Of a DNA stretch of 26,378 nt, positions 2-20,810 are shown in pieces. The notes beneath the pieces are model-generated. The model ran no database searches, was not told where the DNA came from, and saw only the letters and a program-made list of their open reading frames with translations. A program made the translations under genes and the position numbers. Position 1 is the first letter of the stretch. Every line of letters starts with the position of its first letter. Source of the DNA: a virus; the IMG/VR virus record IMGVR_UViG_3300012936_000139, positions 1-26,378 of that record. One strand, written 5' to 3'.

Positions 2-1531
2 AGAGGAGTTAATTCAAAAATTAGAGGAGGTGAAGTCGCACACACAGGAATCATCCCATTCCTAAAAAAGTTTGAAGCAACTGTTCGCTGTTGCACACAA
101 AATGGTGTACGTGGCGGTTCAGCGACTACACATTTTCCTTTTTGGCATCAAGAGATTGAAGATATTCTTGTACTTAAAAATAACAAAGGCACAGAAGATA
201 ATCGTGTAAGAAAATTAGATTATTCTATTCAGTTGAATAAAACAATGTACGAAAGACTTTTATCTGGTGGCGACATAACTCTTTTCTCGCCAAATGATGT
301 GCCAGGATTATACGATGCATACTTTGGAGATCCAGACAAGTTTACAGAACTTTATGAATCATATGAAAGAAAAACTTCTATCAAGAAAAAAGTTATGCCA
401 GCAATGGAATTATTTTCTGCTCTTATAAAGGAACGTGCTGAAACAGGACGTATCTACATAATGAATGTTGATCATTGTAATACACATAGTTCATTTAAGG
501 ATACAGTATACATGAGCAATCTATGTCAAGAAATTACATTACCTACAAAACCACTCCAACATATTGATGACGAGCAAGGAGAAATTGCACTTTGTATCCT
601 ATCTGCAATTAACGTTGGTGTAATAAAATCATTAGACGATTTAGAAGAACTTTGTGATTTAGCTGTCAGAGCATTAGAAGAAATAATTGATTATCAAAGA
701 TATCCTATTAAGGCGGCTGAAATATCTACAAAGGCAAGAAGGTCTTTAGGTATCGGATATATTGGACTAGCACATTATTTGGCAAAAAACAAAGTGTCTT
801 ATAATAGTAAAAAGGCTTGGAAACTTGTACATGATTTGTCAGAAGCATTTCAATACTACTTGCTTAAAGCATCAAATGAATTAGCACAAGAACGAGGAGC
901 ATGTGAGTATTTCAATAGAACTAAATATGCAGACGGCATCTTACCTATTGATACATATAAGAAAGATGTTGATGAATTAGTGGAGAATAAACTTAAATAT
1001 GATTGGTCTTCTTTACGCAAGGACATTAAACAACACGGTTTACGGCACAGCACATTGTCCGCACAAATGCCTTCGGAGAGCAGTTCCGTTGTGTCGAACG
1101 CAACAAACGGAATTGAGCCACCTAGAGGATACTTGTCCGTTAAAAAGTCGAAGAAAGGGCCTCTTAAGCAGATTGTTCCACAATATTACTCCTTAAGAAA
1201 TGATTATACATTGCTTTGGGAAATGACAAGCAACGAAGGATACATAAACATAGTTGCTGTTATGCAGAAATTCTTTGATCAAGCTATCAGTGGTAACTGG
1301 TCATACAATCCAACACAGTATGAAAATAACGAAGTACCAATGAGTGTAATGATAAAAGATTTATTAACAACATATAAACTAGGATGGAAAACGTCATACT
1401 ATCAAAATACATATGATTTTAAAACTGATCCTAGTGAATTACAAGAAGAAGAAAACAAGCCAATTGAGAGGGCAGAGTTTTCCGGCACAGACGAGGAGTA
1501 CGAAGAATATTGTGAAGCCTGTGCAATATAG
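2..1531 (+). CDS. nrdA: Ribonucleotide reductase class Ia, large subunit (5' end outside window)
   Basis: Reduces ribonucleoside diphosphates to deoxyribonucleotides for phage DNA synthesis, with NrdB supplying the radical. The frame is open from base 2, so the gene enters from the left and only about 509 C-terminal residues (roughly two thirds of a ~760-residue NrdA) are seen. The first codons contain the NrdA signatures VRCCTQNGVRGGSATTHFP and EDILVLKNNKGTEDNR. Also visible are SNLCQEITLPTKPL (the N-x-C-x-E of the thiyl-radical site), EIALCILSA (the partner active-site Cys), MPSESSSVVSNATNGIEPPRG, the YY pair in KTSYYQNTYD (radical relay), and a C-terminal CEAC pair reduced by glutaredoxin. 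All key residues visible in this part are present, so the enzyme looks functional. An ATG at 233 is internal and not the true start. nrdB follows after 54 bases. Confidence 0.97.
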   Translation, partial: RGVNSKIRGGEVAHTGIIPFLKKFEATVRCCTQNGVRGGSATTHFPFWHQEIEDILVLKNNKGTEDNRVRKLDYSIQLNKTMYERLLSGGDITLFSPNDVPGLYDAYFGDPDKFTELYESYERKTSIKKKVMPAMELFSALIKERAETGRIYIMNVDHCNTHSSFKDTVYMSNLCQEITLPTKPLQHIDDEQGEIALCILSAINVGVIKSLDDLEELCDLAVRALEEIIDYQRYPIKAAEISTKARRSLGIGYIGLAHYLAKNKVSYNSKKAWKLVHDLSEAFQYYLLKASNELAQERGACEYFNRTKYADGILPIDTYKKDVDELVENKLKYDWSSLRKDIKQHGLRHSTLSAQMPSESSSVVSNATNGIEPPRGYLSVKKSKKGPLKQIVPQYYSLRNDYTLLWEMTSNEGYINIVAVMQKFFDQAISGNWSYNPTQYENNEVPMSVMIKDLLTTYKLGWKTSYYQNTYDFKTDPSELQEEENKPIERAEFSGTDEEYEEYCEACAI

Positions 1532-1532
1532 G

Positions 1533-1561
1533 TTGACAACAATGTTTGATCAGTGTACACT
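1533..1561 (+). promoter_or_regulatory. Predicted host-type promoter for nrdB
   Basis: TTGACA (1533-1538), a 17-base spacer and TACACT (1556-1561) lie in the gap between nrdA and nrdB. The -35 box is perfect and the -10 box matches at four of six positions. It would give nrdB and the genes after it a start independent of nrdA. Prediction from sequence only. Confidence 0.5.
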
Positions 1562-1585
1562 TAACATACAGTAAAAGGAAGAAAG

Positions 1586-2689
1586 ATGGCAAAAACAGTT
1601 TTTAATAAAGATAAGGTCGATTTCACCAAACAGAACATGTTCTTTGGTGCAGATCAAAACACACAAAGATATGACGTATTTAAATTTCCAGTGTTTGATA
1701 AATTAAATCAAACAATGCTTGGGTATTTTTGGAGACCAGAAGAAGTAAGTTTACAAAAAGATAGAGCAGATTATGCTAACTTTCGTCCTGAACAAAAACA
1801 TATTTTCACTGCGAATTTAAAATATCAGACACTGTTAGATTCGGTGCAGGGAAGAGGACCTTGTCTTGCTTTCTTGCCTCATGTGTCTCTTCCTGAACTA
1901 GAAGGTTGTATTGTTACGTGGGACTTTTTTGAAACAATACATTCACGTTCATATACACATATTATGAAAAATGTATATGCAGATCCAAGTGAAGTATTTG
2001 ATACTATTCTTGATGACGAAAAAATACTTGAACGTGCTGTATCAGTAACAAAACATTATGATGCTTTTACTGAAGCGGCAGACAAATTGATCCATTTAAA
2101 AGAAGGTACAATGACAGACGTCAAAAAGAAATTATTTCTTGCAATGATGACTGTAAACATTCTTGAAGGACTTAGATTCTACGTATCATTTGCCTGTACA
2201 TTCGGCTTTGGCGAACTAAAGCTAATGGAAGGCAGTGCTAAGATTATTTCACTTATAGCTAGAGATGAAGCACAACACCTAGCTCTTTCAACACATGTTC
2301 TTAAATTATGGTTGCAGGGTAAAGATGATCCTCAAATGGCAAAGATTGCTAAGTCATGTGATAAAGAAGTTTACGAACTATGGAAATCATGTGTTGAAGA
2401 AGAAAAGGCTTGGGCAGAATACTTGTTTAAAGATGGATCAATGATTGGATTGAATGCACAGTTACTACACCAATACGTTGAATATATTGCTAATCGTAGA
2501 CTTAAAGCACTAGGATATGATGCTATATTTGATCAGCCTGTGAATACAAATCCACTTCCGTGGACACAACATTGGCTATCTAGTTCTGGGTTACAAGTAG
2601 CACCACAAGAAACTGAAGTAGAGTCTTACATCGTCGGGGGCATTAAACAAGATGTGACTAAAGATGTATTGAAAGGATTTAGTTTATGA
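1586..2689 (+). CDS. nrdB: Ribonucleotide reductase class Ia, small (radical) subunit
   Basis: Houses the diiron-tyrosyl radical cofactor that starts catalysis in NrdA. The 367 residues are close to the usual NrdB length. Diiron ligands and the radical tyrosine can be read in order: LLDSVQGRGP (Asp), ETIHSRSYTHI (Glu, His and the radical Tyr), LEGLRFYVSFACTF (Glu) and ARDEAQHLALS (Glu, His). The C-terminus ESYIVGGI keeps the tyrosine that relays the radical to NrdA. AAGGAAG lies just upstream of the ATG. The stop overlaps the next start (ATGA), so the downstream oxygenase is probably translationally coupled. Confidence 0.97.
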   Translation: MAKTVFNKDKVDFTKQNMFFGADQNTQRYDVFKFPVFDKLNQTMLGYFWRPEEVSLQKDRADYANFRPEQKHIFTANLKYQTLLDSVQGRGPCLAFLPHVSLPELEGCIVTWDFFETIHSRSYTHIMKNVYADPSEVFDTILDDEKILERAVSVTKHYDAFTEAADKLIHLKEGTMTDVKKKLFLAMMTVNILEGLRFYVSFACTFGFGELKLMEGSAKIISLIARDEAQHLALSTHVLKLWLQGKDDPQMAKIAKSCDKEVYELWKSCVEEEKAWAEYLFKDGSMIGLNAQLLHQYVEYIANRRLKALGYDAIFDQPVNTNPLPWTQHWLSSSGLQVAPQETEVESYIVGGIKQDVTKDVLKGFSL

Positions 2690-3754: not shown

Positions 3755-3931
3755 ATGAGTATACATGAACAAATCGTTCAAGCGTTTAATAATTACGTAG
3801 CTGAACAAGAATCTTTTGAAACAAAAGGTGTAAAAGCTGCGGCGGCCCGTGCAAGAAAAGCATTAGGCGACCTTGGTAAACTTACAAAGGAAAGACGTAA
3901 GGAAATCCAAGAGAAGAAAAATAATATGTGA
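3755..3931 (+). CDS. Small histone H1-like phage protein
   Basis: A 58-residue gene with a good ribosome site (AAGGAG, 8 bases before the ATG). The protein begins MSIHEQIVQAFNNYVAEQES and continues with AAAARARKALGDLGKLTKER and RRKEIQEKKNN, a lysine/arginine/alanine-rich helical tail. Many tailed phages encode a protein of this size and pattern, often annotated as Hc1/histone H1-like; DNA binding is the usual suggestion but not shown here. The next gene starts 6 bases after its stop. Confidence 0.8.
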   Translation: MSIHEQIVQAFNNYVAEQESFETKGVKAAAARARKALGDLGKLTKERRKEIQEKKNNM

Positions 3932-4718: not shown

Positions 4719-6011
4719 ATGTTAGAAAAACTATTTGGATTGTCAGCAGCTAAGACGACTGTGAAAACAGAAGTCATGGCAGGGTTGGCAACCTTTCTTA
4801 CAATGGCTTATATTACTGTAGTGAATCCAGCTATTCTTTCAACTGAAGGAAGTGGTATGGGTTTTGGTGCTGTATTTACAGCAACTATTATCGCGGCAGT
4901 GATCGGTACATTGATTATGGGGCTATGGGCCAACTGGCCAGTAGCACTTGCACCAGGTATGGGACTAAATGCGTTCTTTACATTTGGTGTTATCTTTGGT
5001 ATGGGATATACCTATCAACAAGCACTAGCGGCTGTGTTTGTAGCAGGTCTAGTGTTTATTGCTTTAAGCGTAACACCAGCACGTAAATATATCATTAATA
5101 GTATTCCAAGAAGTATGAAACTTGGTGTAGGCGCAGGTATTGGCTTGTTTCTTGCTATTATTGGTCTTAAGAATGCAGGCGTGGTTGTAGATAACCCAGC
5201 AACATTAGTTGGCTTAGGTGATGTTACAAGCTGGCCGGTATTACTTACAGGCTTAGGTTTTATTATCATGGCAATCTTAGATAAACGTAAAGTACCAGGT
5301 GCAATTATCCTCGGTATTCTTGCTGTTTCTATTATTGCATGGGTAACAGGTATTTCAGATCTCAACGGATTAGCTGGTGCTATTCCAAATCCAGAACATG
5401 CTTTTAGCATGGATTTTAGTATGATTGCTACTGCTGGATTTATAGGAACTGCATTTGCATTCTTGTTTGTTGACTTTTTTGATACGGCAGGCACACTTAC
5501 AAGTGTTGCAAACCTTACCGGCAAAGTAAACAAAAAAGGTGAAGTTGAGCAAATTGATCGTGCATTATTAGCAGATTCGGTTGCAACAACCGCAGGTGCA
5601 TTGGTTGGTACATCTAATACTACATCATATATTGAAAGTGGTGCTGGTATTAAAGAAGGTGGAAAAACAGGTTTAACCGCAGTAGTTGTTGCAGGTTTAT
5701 TTGCACTATGTTTATTCTTTGCACCATTGGCGCAAAGCATTCCAGCTTTTGCAACTGCACCAGCACTAATTTTTATTGCTACATATTTCTTACGCAACAT
5801 TGCAGATATCGACTGGGATGATGTAACTGAATATGCTCCAGCAGTATTAGCGGCTGTTTTAATGCCTTTGACATTTAGTATTGCTCATGGTATTGCACTT
5901 GGTTTTATTGCTTACGCAGTAATTAAAGCCCTAAGTGGAAAACATGCAGAACTAAACGCAGGCAGTTTAGCTATTGCCGCAATCAGCGTCATTTACTTTA
6001 TCGCTGTATAA
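4719..6011 (+). CDS. AzgA-type purine (adenine/guanine/hypoxanthine) permease, NCS2 family
   Basis: A full-length 430-residue inner-membrane transporter with a dozen or more hydrophobic segments. Signatures of the AzgA/COG2252 branch are present: FLTMAYITVVNPAIL, ALAPGMGLNAFFTFGVIFG, FLFVDFFDTAGTLTSVA (the conserved acidic TM8 region) and GALVGTSNTTSYIESGAGI (TM10 region). The family takes up purine bases with protons. AGGAG precedes the ATG, and a strong terminator follows. No frameshift or missing signature is visible. A transporter of this size is unusual for a phage; with the GMP reductase at 14117 it suggests that the phage increases purine salvage in infected cells. Confidence 0.93.
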   Translation: MLEKLFGLSAAKTTVKTEVMAGLATFLTMAYITVVNPAILSTEGSGMGFGAVFTATIIAAVIGTLIMGLWANWPVALAPGMGLNAFFTFGVIFGMGYTYQQALAAVFVAGLVFIALSVTPARKYIINSIPRSMKLGVGAGIGLFLAIIGLKNAGVVVDNPATLVGLGDVTSWPVLLTGLGFIIMAILDKRKVPGAIILGILAVSIIAWVTGISDLNGLAGAIPNPEHAFSMDFSMIATAGFIGTAFAFLFVDFFDTAGTLTSVANLTGKVNKKGEVEQIDRALLADSVATTAGALVGTSNTTSYIESGAGIKEGGKTGLTAVVVAGLFALCLFFAPLAQSIPAFATAPALIFIATYFLRNIADIDWDDVTEYAPAVLAAVLMPLTFSIAHGIALGFIAYAVIKALSGKHAELNAGSLAIAAISVIYFIAV

Positions 6012-13496: not shown

Positions 13497-14117
13497 ATGG
13501 CAATGCATTCCGAATTGTGGTTCCCAAGTGTAATATGGTCAAGTGTTGTTCATGTTGTAGATAACATAGAATTTAAAAAATGGGCGTATGACAGAAAAAA
13601 TAATGATGTAGGAAGAGTCATTAGTAACTTTGGTGGTTATCAAAGCTCGGATATCCTACCTAGACAATCAACTCTTATAGATACTTTAGTTGGACATTTA
13701 AACACAGAAATAGACAACTGTGCAAGACAGGTAGGTTTAGGTCCAATGTCAATAATGAACATATGGTTAAACATAAATCCTCCAGGTGCATACAATCAAT
13801 TACATAATCATGTTGGAGCAACCTTTAGTGGAGTATATTATATCCACGGTGAAGAAAATCAAGGTAACATACAATTTGAAAGGAATGATGGTGCAGAATA
13901 TCATCTTCCGGATATTCCAGATCAAGTGACATATTATACATCATCAAGAGCAACATATAAAGCTAAGACAGGAGCTCTGTATATCTTTCCTGGATGGCTT
14001 AGACACAGTGTACAAGGTAATCAAAGTAACACTGATAGAATTAGTGTAAGTTTTAATTATGGTCCTGATGTAAGAAATTGGATAGGTATTAACAAAGAAG
14101 ACGGAGACGTAAAGTAA
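13497..14117 (+). CDS. 2OG-Fe(II) oxygenase, TIGR02466-like
   Basis: 206 residues from ATG 13497 (GAGG 8 bases upstream, within bS21). The C-terminal half has the pattern [46 protein letters not shown] and DRISVSFN, which I know from the TIGR02466 family of putative oxygenases. Metal ligands would be H103-x-H105 and H170, with R181 for 2-oxoglutarate; the first pair is H-x-H rather than H-x-D, as in this family. Substrate unknown. The stop overlaps the GMP reductase start (TAATG). Confidence 0.82.
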
Positions 14118-15286
14118 TGCGAATTGAAGAAGATGTCAAATTAGACTATAAGGACGTTCTTATTCGTCCGAAACGTTCAACATTAGGTAGTAGAAAAGAA
14201 GTAGACTTAGAAAGAGGATTTTCATTCCGTAACTATAAACCTTCAGAAATGACAATGGAGGATATACGTCCAGACTACAGAAATTGGAGAGGCATTCCAT
14301 TAATGGCAAGCAATATGGACGGAGTAGGAACATTTGAAATGGCAAATGTTCTCGCTGAACAGAAAATTATGACTTGTCTAGTTAAAACTTATACAGTGGC
14401 ACAACTTGTAAATTATTTTGAGACAGGTGGAGTCACACCCGAAAGAACAAATTATGTTGCAATGAGTATTGGAATTACAGATGCTGATCATGATAAGTTC
14501 CGAAAAGTTTACGAACAGACTGATACACAATTAAAATATGTGTGTATTGATGTAGCAAACGGTTATTCAGAAAGATTTGCGGCTTTTGTAAAAGAGTTTA
14601 GAAATTTATATCCGCATGTCGTTATTATTGCAGGAAATGTAGTAACAGGTGAAATGACAGAAGAGTTGTTGTTGAATGGAGCAGATATTGTCAAAGTGGG
14701 TATTGGCCCTGGTAGTGTTTGCACTACTAGAATACAGACTGGTGTTGGATATCCGCAGTTGTCCGCAGTCATAGAATGTGCAGATGCGGCACATGGCCTT
14801 GGTGGACATGTTATAGCTGATGGTGGTTGTACTTGTCCTGGAGACATTGCGAAAGCATTTGCTGGCGGTGCTGATTATGTAATGCTAGGAGGTATGTTAG
14901 CAGGACATGATGAAGGTGGCGGAGAAGTAGTAACAAAATATTACAAAACTGGTGAATGGGTCAAAGAAGAACAACAAGCCGCACAAGGTGGCCCTATTAG
15001 CGTCAGTTGGAAAGATAAAATAGATAGGAAACAATTCGTGCAGTTTTACGGCATGAGCAGTAAAGCCGCAAACGACAAACATTTCGGTGGTCTTAAGGAA
15101 TATAGGGCTTCGGAAGGCAGGGATGTGCTGGTACCTTACAGAGGATCTGTGATGCATAGCATACAAGAAATACTCGGAGGTATCCGCTCTACCTGCACTT
15201 ATGCAGGAGCACAAAGGCTAAAACATTTAATGAGATGCACTACATTTGTTAGATGTACAAAACAGTTCAATGATGTGTATGCATGA
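14117..15286 (+). CDS. guaC: GMP reductase
   Basis: NADPH-dependent deamination of GMP to IMP. 389 residues against ~347 in E. coli. Key residues align: catalytic C202 and T204 in [20 protein letters not shown] (E. coli C186, T188), K90 (K77) and E333 in EYRASEG (E289); D145 and G-rich IADGGC and [14 protein letters not shown] are also present. About 27 extra residues lie between GGGE and FYGMSS, rich in Lys/Glu/Gln. An IMP dehydrogenase would have a different flap (no R-Y motif here), so GuaC is the better call. It overlaps the oxygenase by one base and the next gene by four (ATGA). Confidence 0.93.
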
Positions 15287-15618: not shown

Positions 15619-16080
15619 ATGACAAGAATAACAACTCTAGACTTACCCTCAATACATAGACACTTTGTAGGATTCGACAGAATGTTCGATGAAATGGACA
15701 GAATGTTTGAAAATTCTAAAAGTCAAGGGTATCCCCCATACAACATTGCTAAACTAAATGACAATGAGTTTATGATCTCATTGGCAGTAGCCGGCTTTGG
15801 TATGGACAACTTGGCAATCGAAAAGGATAAAGATGTCCTTAAGATTGTAGGAACAGCACCTAAAGGAGACGACGAAGTCAATTACCTACATAGAGGCATT
15901 GGCGGACGTAATTTCCGTAGAGAGTTTACATTAGCTGAACATGTAGATGTTCACAATGCTGAACTAAAAAATGGAATGTTAAACATTCACTTGAAACGTG
16001 AAGTTCCAGAAGAGTTGCAACCTAAAAAAATTAAGATCAATGAAGGTCTTACAATTGAAGGGTCTGCAACAGACAAGTAA
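15619..16080 (+). CDS. Small heat shock protein Hsp20 (IbpA type)
   Basis: 153-residue ATP-independent chaperone that holds unfolding proteins. The alpha-crystallin domain spans about residues 38-140: PPYNIAKLNDNEFMISLAVA, GIGGRNFRREFTLAEHVDVH, AELKNGMLNIHLKREVP with the conserved A-x-x-x-N-G-x-L motif, and a C-terminal I-K-I for oligomer contacts. AAAGGAG precedes the ATG. Hsp20 is common in T4-like marine phages. A strong GC hairpin separates it from clpS. Confidence 0.95.
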   Translation: MTRITTLDLPSIHRHFVGFDRMFDEMDRMFENSKSQGYPPYNIAKLNDNEFMISLAVAGFGMDNLAIEKDKDVLKIVGTAPKGDDEVNYLHRGIGGRNFRREFTLAEHVDVHNAELKNGMLNIHLKREVPEELQPKKIKINEGLTIEGSATDK

Positions 16081-16124: not shown

Positions 16125-16436
16125 ATGACAATAGCAACAGATACAGAAATTAAGTTAGACGAAAAGATAGAAAAAACTATCGATGAACCAGGAAAGTATC
16201 ACGTAATTTTTCTTAACGATGATTCAACTCCTATGGAGTTTGTTATAGAGATGTTAACTCATGTTTTCAAACACTCTAAAGAAACTGCTGAAAAAATTAT
16301 GTTAGAAATACACAACAATGGTAGTGGTATTGCTGGCACTTTTAATTTTGAAATAGCAGAACAAAAAGCAAACGAAACCATATCATATGCTCGAGGAAAT
16401 GGCTTTCCACTAAATATCAAGATAGAGAAAGCATAA
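16125..16436 (+). CDS. clpS: ClpS, N-degron adaptor for ClpAP
   Basis: 103 residues. ClpS delivers proteins with bulky N-terminal residues to ClpA and inhibits ClpA action on ssrA-tagged proteins. Recognition residues are intact: FLNDDSTPMEFV (N31, D32, D33, T35, M37) and H63 in EIHNNGSGIAG; the C-terminal FPLNIKIEKA fits the family. The first 22 residues form the flexible extension that reaches ClpA. AAGGA lies before the ATG. Heme oxygenase starts 5 bases after its stop. Phage ClpS genes are rare to my knowledge. Confidence 0.95.
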   Translation: MTIATDTEIKLDEKIEKTIDEPGKYHVIFLNDDSTPMEFVIEMLTHVFKHSKETAEKIMLEIHNNGSGIAGTFNFEIAEQKANETISYARGNGFPLNIKIEKA

Positions 16437-16440
16437 CAAT

Positions 16441-17007
16441 ATGAGCAACTTAAAACAACTAACGTGGGAACATCACAAAAACGCAGAAAGACAATCGTTT
16501 GTAAAAGTCTTAATGAGTGGTAAAATTAATCCTAAATTTTATGCCACTTACCTTTGGAATCAACATAAAAAATATGACATACTAGAAGCCATGGCATTTG
16601 CCCAAGGATGTTTAGATGGACTTGTTGATATAAAAAGAAAAATGAAAATAGAACAAGACTTTGTTGAACTGTGGAAAGATGATGAAATGCCTATGTTGGT
16701 AGAAAGCACACACGAATACATGAGACATATGAAAACAATAATGACTGATCCAGATAAACTTATGGCTCATGTCTACGTTTTACATATGGGTGATCTAAGT
16801 GGCGGACAAATGATTAAAAAGAAAGTGCCTGGCGAAGGTCGTATGTATACTTTTGATACAGACAAAGCTGAATTGAAAGAAGCTATCAGGGCAAAGACAA
16901 ATGATAGCATGGCAGATGAAGCAAAGTGGGTGTTTGATTCTGCAACCAAGTTGTTCCAAGAATTAATGGAGATTGATATTGAGCATTATATGGAACAAGC
17001 TGATTGA
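16441..17007 (+). CDS. Heme oxygenase
   Basis: Opens heme to biliverdin, releasing iron and CO. 188 residues. The proximal ligand is H12 in LTWEHHKNAERQSF (the H-x-x-A-E pattern); the distal helix is AHVYVLHMGDLSGGQMIKKK with the G-D-L-S-G-G-Q signature. Length is near a compact bacterial/phage HO. No good ribosome site is visible before the ATG, which sits 5 bases after the clpS stop, so coupling is likely. The bilin reductase gene overlaps its end, pointing to a two-step pathway. Confidence 0.93.
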   Translation: MSNLKQLTWEHHKNAERQSFVKVLMSGKINPKFYATYLWNQHKKYDILEAMAFAQGCLDGLVDIKRKMKIEQDFVELWKDDEMPMLVESTHEYMRHMKTIMTDPDKLMAHVYVLHMGDLSGGQMIKKKVPGEGRMYTFDTDKAELKEAIRAKTNDSMADEAKWVFDSATKLFQELMEIDIEHYMEQAD

Positions 17008-17671
17008 TTGTAAAGATCAAATTATAGACATATTCAACGAACAAGCAACTGAAATTGACGAACCTGGATTAGATTATTTTAACCGTCCTGACAGTGGATG
17101 GATAAACAGAGTGTGGGCTAATGATTATGTCCGTAGGGCTCACATAGATGTAGTCGATGCTCGAGATTCTAAAGGCTTATGGATGATGCATGTTTGCATT
17201 TTTCCAACACTAGACAATCCTGCACCTATATATGGCTTCGATGTAATAGCAGGTAAAAACAAGATGACAGGCGCATTCCATGACTTTTCACCAAGTGCTG
17301 ATCCAGATCACGATATGATACAAGGTTACTATGAAAGTGTTGAACACTTTGTACCTGAAAAGCAACGTGAGCTTCCTGAATGGGCTAGAAACATTTTTAC
17401 AGGCAAAATGCTTGCCGCTGGCAATGTTAAAACAGACGAAGAAGCAACAGAAATTATACGTATAGCACTAAGCAATCTACATGCATACTTTGCCGAAGTA
17501 GGTGCTACAAAAGGCTACGGTGATCAAGATTTAGTAGCGGCGTCACAAAACTATTACTGCCATAATCAGCAACAAAACCCACACACAGCTAACGTAATGA
17601 AGTCTCTAGGCTTACCAGAAGAAGATGTAGATCGCTTCTGCACAGATATGTTGTTTCCTAAACTTGCATAA
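16979..17671 (+). CDS. Ferredoxin-dependent bilin reductase (PcyX/PebS-like)
   Basis: Reduces biliverdin to a phycobilin. 230 residues from TTG 16979, preferred because TGGAG lies 7 bases upstream; TTG 16973 is the alternative, and there is no ATG before the core. The family core is clear: HVCIFPTLDNPAPIYGFDVI followed by AGKNKMTGAFHDFSP. H71 and D88 are 17 residues apart, matching the H88/D105 pair of PcyA. The YGFDVIAGK and HDFSP blocks are closest to PcyA-type enzymes. The viral reductase PcyX, described from ocean metagenomes beside a heme oxygenase, is the nearest known analogue; product (phycoerythrobilin) is inferred. It overlaps heme oxygenase by 29 bases. Confidence 0.9.
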   Translation: MSIIWNKLIDCKDQIIDIFNEQATEIDEPGLDYFNRPDSGWINRVWANDYVRRAHIDVVDARDSKGLWMMHVCIFPTLDNPAPIYGFDVIAGKNKMTGAFHDFSPSADPDHDMIQGYYESVEHFVPEKQRELPEWARNIFTGKMLAAGNVKTDEEATEIIRIALSNLHAYFAEVGATKGYGDQDLVAASQNYYCHNQQQNPHTANVMKSLGLPEEDVDRFCTDMLFPKLA

Positions 17672-17691: not shown

Positions 17692-18765
17692 ATGCGTTAT
17701 CATCAATTTAAAATAAACGAATACACAGATCTAGAAACAGAAAAACAAACTATTATTAAAACAATTAGTGGTTTAGATGCTTCTAATGAAGAAGAGGCGG
17801 CTATTTTAGATAGGATTTATAAGATACTTAATTCTGATAGAATCAGCACAACTATAGATAATGCTTTTAGTAAGCCTATTGCTGATGAAAGTCTAAGTGA
17901 TAATGCAAAAAAACAAATTATAAGAGATGTCACAGAGATACTAGGAACACTTTCTGTAGATTACAAAAGGATGAATCAGTTCTTAGACAAAATGGAACAA
18001 GGTGGTGTCATCAATACAACTGCGTTAGGCAAACCTGTAAGTAGTTTTGAATCTGTATTTGATAATGATGTAGTTGCACAAATGGCTTTCTTAAAACTTG
18101 CTAACTATGGTTCAGGTAAAAATCAAAAAGGTCCTGGAGAATATGCACTTGCTATGTTAAGTGATAAGATTTCATTACGTCCAGGCGGGGGTGATTTAGA
18201 TGTTGAAGGACTAGGGCAAGTAGAACTTAAAGCCGCAGTTGGAGCAAGTGGTGGAAGACTAGGACATGGTGGATTAGCACAAAAAGATGCAAAAGCCGCT
18301 TTAGAAAAATATCACGATAATGTACCAGCACTAAAGCAACACTTTGAACAAGGTGCAAAAGGTATGAGTTTGAAAAACTTCCAAGTATATCTTGCATCAG
18401 GCTTACCGCCAAGAGACGAAGCAAATAAAAAATTAAGATACGAAATAGGTATGGATCTTTATGGTCCTATTTTTGGAGAGTTTGCAAAAGCAATGGCAAC
18501 TGCTTTGACGCAAGACGATTACAATGTGCTAGAAGCAGAATTTTTAAAAGCTAACTATGCCTATTATCTAGATAAAGATTATTTTGATGTATTATTACTG
18601 TGTAGTTTTTCAGCAGGAAAATTTGCGGCAGTAAGAAATGCTGATGAACTAATTGCACTTAAACAAGCAGGGCATCTTTCTGCTCCTGCTCCTTCGGCAG
18701 TACCAACCAACGCAGGCATGCGTGAAGTGTTTTCTAAAGTTAGTTTGTCAAAAGCTAAAATATAA
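17692..18765 (+). CDS. Phage protein with possible PD-(D/E)XK nuclease motif
   Basis: 357 residues, start MRYHQFKINEYTDLE typical of marine T4-like virion-associated proteins. The centre (residues 147-195) holds GPGEYALAML, then GGGDLDVEGLGQVELKAAVG. E150, D168/D170 and E178-x-K180 form the spacing of a PD-(D/E)XK nuclease core. The C-terminal third is helical, ending in Pro/Ala-rich sequence. The rest shows no known domain. A late-type promoter and AAGGA precede it. Either a nuclease packaged or acting late, or a structural protein with a chance match. Confidence 0.6.
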   Translation: MRYHQFKINEYTDLETEKQTIIKTISGLDASNEEEAAILDRIYKILNSDRISTTIDNAFSKPIADESLSDNAKKQIIRDVTEILGTLSVDYKRMNQFLDKMEQGGVINTTALGKPVSSFESVFDNDVVAQMAFLKLANYGSGKNQKGPGEYALAMLSDKISLRPGGGDLDVEGLGQVELKAAVGASGGRLGHGGLAQKDAKAALEKYHDNVPALKQHFEQGAKGMSLKNFQVYLASGLPPRDEANKKLRYEIGMDLYGPIFGEFAKAMATALTQDDYNVLEAEFLKANYAYYLDKDYFDVLLLCSFSAGKFAAVRNADELIALKQAGHLSAPAPSAVPTNAGMREVFSKVSLSKAKI

Positions 18766-20276: not shown

Positions 20277-20810
20277 ATGATTGAAGGTTTCAAAATACCA
20301 TGCGTGACTTTTAAAATGAGAGTCCGAGATGAATCAATTGGTGGTCCTAACCCTTATCGTTGGGAGGATATAACCAGTGACTCACTGCTTAAAGGCAAAA
20401 GAGTAGTATTGTTCAGTCTACCAGGAGCGTTCACACCTACGTGTTCAACATATCAACTTCCTGGTTTTGAAGAAAACTACGATAAAATCCGTAATCAAGA
20501 CATAGATGAAGTTTATTGTATTTCTGTAAATGATGCTTTTGTAATGAATGCTTGGGCAAAGCACCAAAACATACAAAACGTCAAAGTAATACCTGATGGT
20601 TCAGGAAACTTTACAAGATACATGGGGATGCTAATAGGAAAAAACCATTTAGGTTTTGGATTGCGTTCCTGGAGATATATGGCAGTTATCAATGATGGTG
20701 TTGTAGAAAAATGGTGGCAAGAACCTGGTATTAATAATGACGGTGACGATGATGATCCGTATGTAGAAACTACACCAGATAACTGTGTAGGCTATCTTTG
20801 CGATGTATGA
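20277..20810 (+). CDS. Peroxiredoxin (Prx5-like)
   Basis: 177 residues that reduce peroxides with a thiol. The peroxidatic site is SLPGAFTPTCSTYQLPGFEE with C56, in the P-x-x-x-T-x-C form; R142-type Arg is in the GLRSWRYMAVINDGVV block. The C-terminus (TPDNCVGYLCDV) has two further Cys, one possibly resolving. ATAAGGA precedes the ATG at a good spacing. Glutaredoxin at 3204 could serve as reductant. Protection of infected cells against oxidative stress is the likely use. Confidence 0.93.
   Translation: MIEGFKIPCVTFKMRVRDESIGGPNPYRWEDITSDSLLKGKRVVLFSLPGAFTPTCSTYQLPGFEENYDKIRNQDIDEVYCISVNDAFVMNAWAKHQNIQNVKVIPDGSGNFTRYMGMLIGKNHLGFGLRSWRYMAVINDGVVEKWWQEPGINNDGDDDDPYVETTPDNCVGYLCDV

Follow-up and report, generated by a model that had tools for sequence, protein, structure and literature searches.

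What viruses of non-photosynthetic bacteria gain by producing a light-harvesting pigment is a question raised by two overlapping genes in the marine IMG/VR virus record IMGVR_UViG_3300012936_000139, of which we analyzed positions 1 to 26,378 as one stretch (26,378 nucleotides, here called the window; Table 1). We propose, with a probability of roughly 75%, that these genes, encoding a heme oxygenase (HO) and a ferredoxin-dependent bilin reductase (FDBR), provide a virus-encoded route from heme to the pink pigment phycoerythrobilin (PEB) in a PA5oct-like phage whose host is non-cyanobacterial and probably alphaproteobacterial.

Table 1. Window features bearing on the HO-reductase pair, its carrier, and its host
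Feature	Position	Strand	Properties
nrdA-nrdB	2..2689	+	85%/84% identity to related phage contig G002, gene order kept
NCS2 purine permease	4719..6011	+	Pfam Xan_ur_permease, 1.1e-51; used as host indicator
IMPDH/GMP reductase-like protein, usual upstream neighbor	14117..15286	+	Pfam IMPDH, 4.8e-66; in 70/81 PcyX loci
Hsp20 small heat-shock protein	15619..16080	+	Pfam HSP20, 7.2e-15
ClpS, N-degron adaptor of Clp protease	16125..16436	+	Pfam ClpS, 3.9e-28
Heme oxygenase (HO)	16441..17007	+	188 aa, ATG start; Pfam Heme_oxygenase, E = 1.3e-19
PcyX-type ferredoxin-dependent bilin reductase	16979..17671	+	230 aa, TTG start; Pfam Fe_bilin_red, E = 4.9e-17
Peroxiredoxin	20277..20810	+	Pfam Redoxin, 6e-24; phrog_2281, 2.3e-65; 2.6 kb from PcyX

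Two overlapping genes and the class of the reductase

A preliminary description of this DNA had read the two genes as a heme oxygenase and a bilin reductase, and this reading stands, as both Pfam matches exceed the curated cut-offs. The HO combines the family score (PF01126) with the proximal His and the GD..GG motif; the proximal His12, the heme ligand, is kept in 113/114 sequences and Gly117-Asp118, in the region of the catalytic Asp, in 113 to 114 of 114. The enzyme may have the regiospecificity that yields biliverdin IXalpha. The 29-base overlap of the two genes that had been described is exact if the reductase starts at TTG 16979, which leaves 29 nucleotides shared with the HO open reading frame. 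This start is supported because relatives keep a start codon at position -29 (TTG, GTG, or ATG across many related loci); a second in-frame TTG, at 16973, lies upstream of it and is less conserved.

Several lines of evidence support the assignment of the reductase to PcyX rather than to PcyA or PebS. Its best match in the PDB was the PcyX structure 5owg (E = 2.5e-83), with PcyA structures at ~1e-12. In a maximum-likelihood tree, it fell within a PcyX clade of 21 sequences that includes 5owg and the enzyme of phage Mosig (support, 99/98) and that stands apart from cyanophage PcyA and PebS; the positions of the tree's outgroups, which have long branches, are unsure. PcyX has been grouped with alphaproteobacterial PcyA in earlier work (PMC10151467). 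An AlphaFold model of the reductase (pLDDT, 89.6) also had 5owg as its top fold match, and the phylogeny and structural model that the preliminary description had suggested as checks thus both agree with the PcyX class that it had put forward.

The signature residues point in the same direction. Residue D57 is the PcyX-specific Asp, found as Asp in 115/115 distinct viral relatives and as Glu in six PcyA sequences; the published residue that marks PcyX is the catalytic Asp55, which is Glu76 in PcyA (PMC11480375). D57, H71, D88, and N200-P201-H202 were invariant in the alignment of the 115 distinct relatives, and the His and Asp that had been noted to lie 17 residues apart, as in PcyA, are H71 and D88 here and H88 and D105 there. 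PcyA residues Glu76 and Asp220 (Synechocystis numbering) are replaced by Asp and Pro, and the reductase is identical to PebS, which lies outside the PcyX/PcyA branch, at 45/198 positions. Given these class features, fold, and residues, the product made from biliverdin would be PEB.

Phage lineage and probable host

Gene order is shared between the window and G002, a 262-kb phage contig, along a stretch of about 31 kb; the G002 terminase (terL) was 57.7% identical to that of the Pseudomonas jumbo phage PA5oct and 50 to 51% identical to those of Sinorhizobium and Agrobacterium jumbo phages. The terL proteins of three relatives (G001 to G003) showed 31 to 33% identity to that of the SAR11 phage Mosig (33% for G002), which protein searches returned as the one cultured non-cyanophage relative with an HO-reductase pair. 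This level is too low for these relatives to be kin of SAR11 myophages of the HTVC008M/Mosig type, and the backbone of the window appears not to be Mosig-related. Terminase kinship and a genome of >200 kb are found together in G002, as in Arenbergviridae and their kin; the window itself carries no terminase, and these relatives suggest that its phage is a large PA5oct-like myovirus. The window also encodes a small histone H1-like Hc1 protein (positions 3755 to 3931; Pfam, 8.8e-12) that is conserved in G002 and G003.

It is very improbable that the two genes are a cyanophage auxiliary pair supporting host phycobilisomes. Cyanophages do carry HO with PcyA or PebS, and at the DNA level the window nrdA is nearest to cyanophages (72%), but the PcyX clade leaves out both cyanophage enzymes, and terL of the large relatives is nearest to that of proteobacterial jumbo phages. 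The markers psbA, cpeT, cobS, and PebS were absent from two ~260-kb relatives, as were psbA and cpeT from G001 to G003, the window being only a fragment. These observations bear out the earlier suspicion of a non-cyanobacterial phage.

The best match of the NCS2 permease, at 77% identity, lies on a chromosomal contig of G062, a genome in the alphaproteobacterial sample (the class of a Rickettsiales MAG); the next best match reached 63%. No cyanophage or pelagiphage record contained a relative of this permease; when the search was narrowed to taxa around G062, only G062 itself matched; and no 16S was found in G062 or in genome G024. With moderate confidence, this one transporter gene and the terL kinship suggest a host that is non-cyanobacterial and probably alphaproteobacterial. 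A SAR11-like host, which the preliminary description had entertained conditionally, is not supported and is probably not the correct one, since terL of the relatives is only 31 to 33% identical to that of Mosig and the permease, the sole host-like gene of the window, points to another alphaproteobacterium.

ClpP was discarded as a host indicator because, across the 273 genomes in which ClpP was matched, phage ClpP reached at most 59 to 62% identity, which fails to discriminate. FDBR genes were rare in alphaproteobacteria (1 to 2 of 385 genomes, and distant), and a plasmid search gave no match. The four PcyX matches in bacterial genomes (L083 to L086) all showed phage gene order and are likely phage contigs mis-binned into MAGs; these MAGs are assigned to Pirellulales, Halobacteroidaceae, Neomarinimicrobiota, and Rickettsiales, and the L085 match lies on a 335-kb contig.

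The gene neighborhood of the pair

In the window, the ClpS stop lies 4 nucleotides upstream of the HO start, and the ClpS protein has the pocket motifs NDDxTPM and IMLxIH. Family searches with the gene 3' of PcyX (17692 to 18762) gave no match. PcyX relatives were found on 201 viral stretches, and when the best 80 of these were taken together with Mosig, 73 had ClpS and 74 had HO, the genes being arranged as GMP reductase-like protein, Hsp20, ClpS, HO, and PcyX. Two contig sets were gathered with ClpS as the sole query, so that there was no selection on the bilin genes; the second was ranked by similarity to PA5oct ClpS. HO lay immediately 3' of ClpS in 71/71 contigs with room for it in the ClpS-only search and in 55 of the 57 HO-bearing contigs of the PA5oct-ClpS set, and ClpS was preceded by Hsp20 in 69/69 and 68/70 contigs, respectively. 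Where enough sequence was available, the PA5oct-ClpS set contained 57 contigs with both HO and PcyX, 17 with neither, and 0 with one alone (Fisher 4e-17, a guide only because IMG/VR contigs are partly redundant and the counts are not independent events). In most contigs, the HO start falls at, or overlaps, the ClpS stop.

In the cultured phages PA5oct, Phosso, and Atu_ph07, ClpS follows Hsp20, with a thymidine kinase between the two in Phosso and Atu_ph07, and HO is absent. This arrangement suggests that HO-PcyX was probably added behind an older Hsp20-ClpS unit, or lost from it, as a single cassette, and it weakens the case for a specific functional link between ClpS and HO. The PA5oct gene after ClpS, considered as a possible HO, was ruled out, since it encodes an Fe/Mn superoxide dismutase.

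The surroundings of the cassette vary among relatives. Three loci (L243, L246, and L312) carry a SufB-like (Fe-S cluster assembly) gene of 481 to 482 aa directly after ClpS, in the HO-PcyX slot. A tryptophan-halogenase family protein lies between HO and PcyX in L055, L073, L231, and L292; a CN-hydrolase or 2OG oxygenase separates them in some other contigs; and L213 has two desaturase-like membrane proteins there, one of which gave no Pfam match with its first 120 residues. PcyX is located elsewhere in the genome, without an adjoining HO, in L061/G003, L063, L064, and L076 to L078, the L076 copy being beside DNA polymerase, and in G003, a contig of 133 kb that may be incomplete, Hsp20-ClpS is not accompanied by HO. 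Curli secretion genes, not found in the window, lie 1.6 to 3 kb 3' of PcyX in L164, L217, L303, and ~90 other loci; Pfam confirmed CsgG, CsgF, and Curlin_rpt near HO-PcyX, with CsgF at 96, CsgG at 89, and a curlin-repeat protein at 77 of 215 loci. Curli genes are known from pelagimyophages (PMC7029224), whereas the phages here belong to a different lineage.

Possible roles of the bilin and relation to known systems

In the proposed pathway, HO would open heme to give biliverdin IXalpha, Fe2+, and CO, and PcyX would convert biliverdin to PEB in a four-electron reduction. A search of 16 related phage contigs showed no plant-type ferredoxin, and host ferredoxin or a similar protein is therefore assumed as the electron donor. 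Hsp20, ClpS, HO, and PcyX may constitute one operon whose genes are co-transcribed and translationally coupled. ALA synthase, read in relatives and not in the window, scored above the equivalog cut-off in 7/21 viral contigs, including G001 and G002 (both ~260 kb; one TAA is marked in the G002 match), which suggests that these phages drive new heme synthesis besides heme breakdown. In G002 it lies about 20 kb past the nrdA end, and the phage of the window is predicted to have it at the corresponding place. Since phages that make heme spend iron, the presence of ALA synthase and the strict HO/PcyX pairing make a bilin output likelier than net iron release. We therefore suggest, tentatively, that the point of the pathway may be the reduced bilin itself, an antioxidant or a regulatory pigment produced during infection, rather than light harvesting or net iron gain. 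A redox-stress theme near the cassette (superoxide dismutase after ClpS in PA5oct, the SufB-like gene in the same slot of other relatives, and the peroxiredoxin of the window) fits this suggestion but does not prove it. HO-PcyX is nearly fixed in a widespread jumbo-phage lineage, always paired, and often accompanied by ALA synthase, which argues that the pair is important to these phages and narrows the explanations toward the bilin product itself. The three cultured phages without the pair (PA5oct, Phosso, and Atu_ph07) are natural comparisons.

Iron supply is a possible but doubtful purpose. HO could free host heme iron for ribonucleotide reductase and 2OG-Fe(II) oxygenases, with PcyX doing no more than clearing biliverdin; class I nrdAB and 2OG oxygenases are encoded in the window, some relatives have the SufB-like protein in place of HO-PcyX, and such a role has been discussed (PMC11480375). 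However, HO was never kept without PcyX, and the ALA synthase of relatives, together with a ferrochelatase beside HO in Mosig, indicates heme building, which costs iron. PcyX might merely remove biliverdin and so keep HO turning over. We consider it unlikely that the bilin is a chromophore for a bilin-binding photoreceptor or globin of host or phage: PEB and PCB can load biliproteins, and bilin-binding globins occur in non-photosynthetic bacteria (PMC10151467), but no phytochrome PHY domain was found among 24 records, nor any credible phycobiliprotein-type globin in the large relatives, where one match lay inside a 4122-aa ORF.

Improbable, too, is a role in which HO-PcyX, perhaps with ClpS-directed proteolysis, would strip the host of heme or of heme proteins, or would generate CO, allowing a takeover of respiration or the disarming of heme-based defenses. 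ClpS adaptors direct Clp proteolysis, and the close junction of ClpS and HO would suit such a role, but the ALA synthase of relatives acts in the opposite direction, and the Hsp20-ClpS unit of PA5oct, Phosso, and Atu_ph07, being without HO, means that the neighborhood may be ancestral chance. We regard as distinctly unlikely a more elaborate scheme in which Hsp20-ClpS-HO-PcyX is one working unit, with ClpS steering host Clp proteolysis while phage ALA synthase, HO, and PcyX redirect host tetrapyrrole flow to PEB; if true, the phages would take over the heme metabolism of non-photosynthetic hosts in a programmed way.

Among known systems, the crystallized PcyX (5owg; EBK42635), a PEB synthase that occurs together with HO in uncultured ocean viruses, shares with the window the enzyme, its signature residues, and the HO-PcyX pairing; the two reductases are identical at 118/226 positions, and the window belongs to another phage lineage. 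The 2016 PcyX paper reportedly already argued for phages of alphaproteobacteria. Since 5owg is identical to Mosig PcyX at 191/226 positions, it is of the SAR11-phage type. In Pelagibacter phage Mosig EXVC030M (MT647606), HO and FDBR overlap and adjoin as in the window, but HO is 43% and the reductase 52% identical, the terminase lineage differs, and the Mosig HO has no adjoining ClpS or Hsp20, with the ferrochelatase (L002, 16357-17127) close to HO-PcyX instead. Cyanophage PcyA and PebS share superfamily and fold with the window reductase, although PcyA has Glu where the window has the key-site Asp and PebS forms a distant clade.

Both HO-PcyX and hemO-pcyA/X-valaS cassettes of aquatic phages have been published (PMC11480375), and novelty is therefore limited to the setting. 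The pathway of those cassettes is shared, and ALA synthase also occurs in the window's relatives; the marine contigs of that study were assigned to pelagiphages, whereas the carriers here appear to be PA5oct-like jumbo phages with HO after Hsp20-ClpS. The open literature that we searched, with incomplete coverage, held no report of the Hsp20-ClpS-HO-PcyX order or of a PA5oct-like carrier lineage. The HO-PcyX pair is thus already known from ocean viruses, and what is new and informative is its genomic setting, in a putative Hsp20-ClpS operon and a jumbo-phage lineage.
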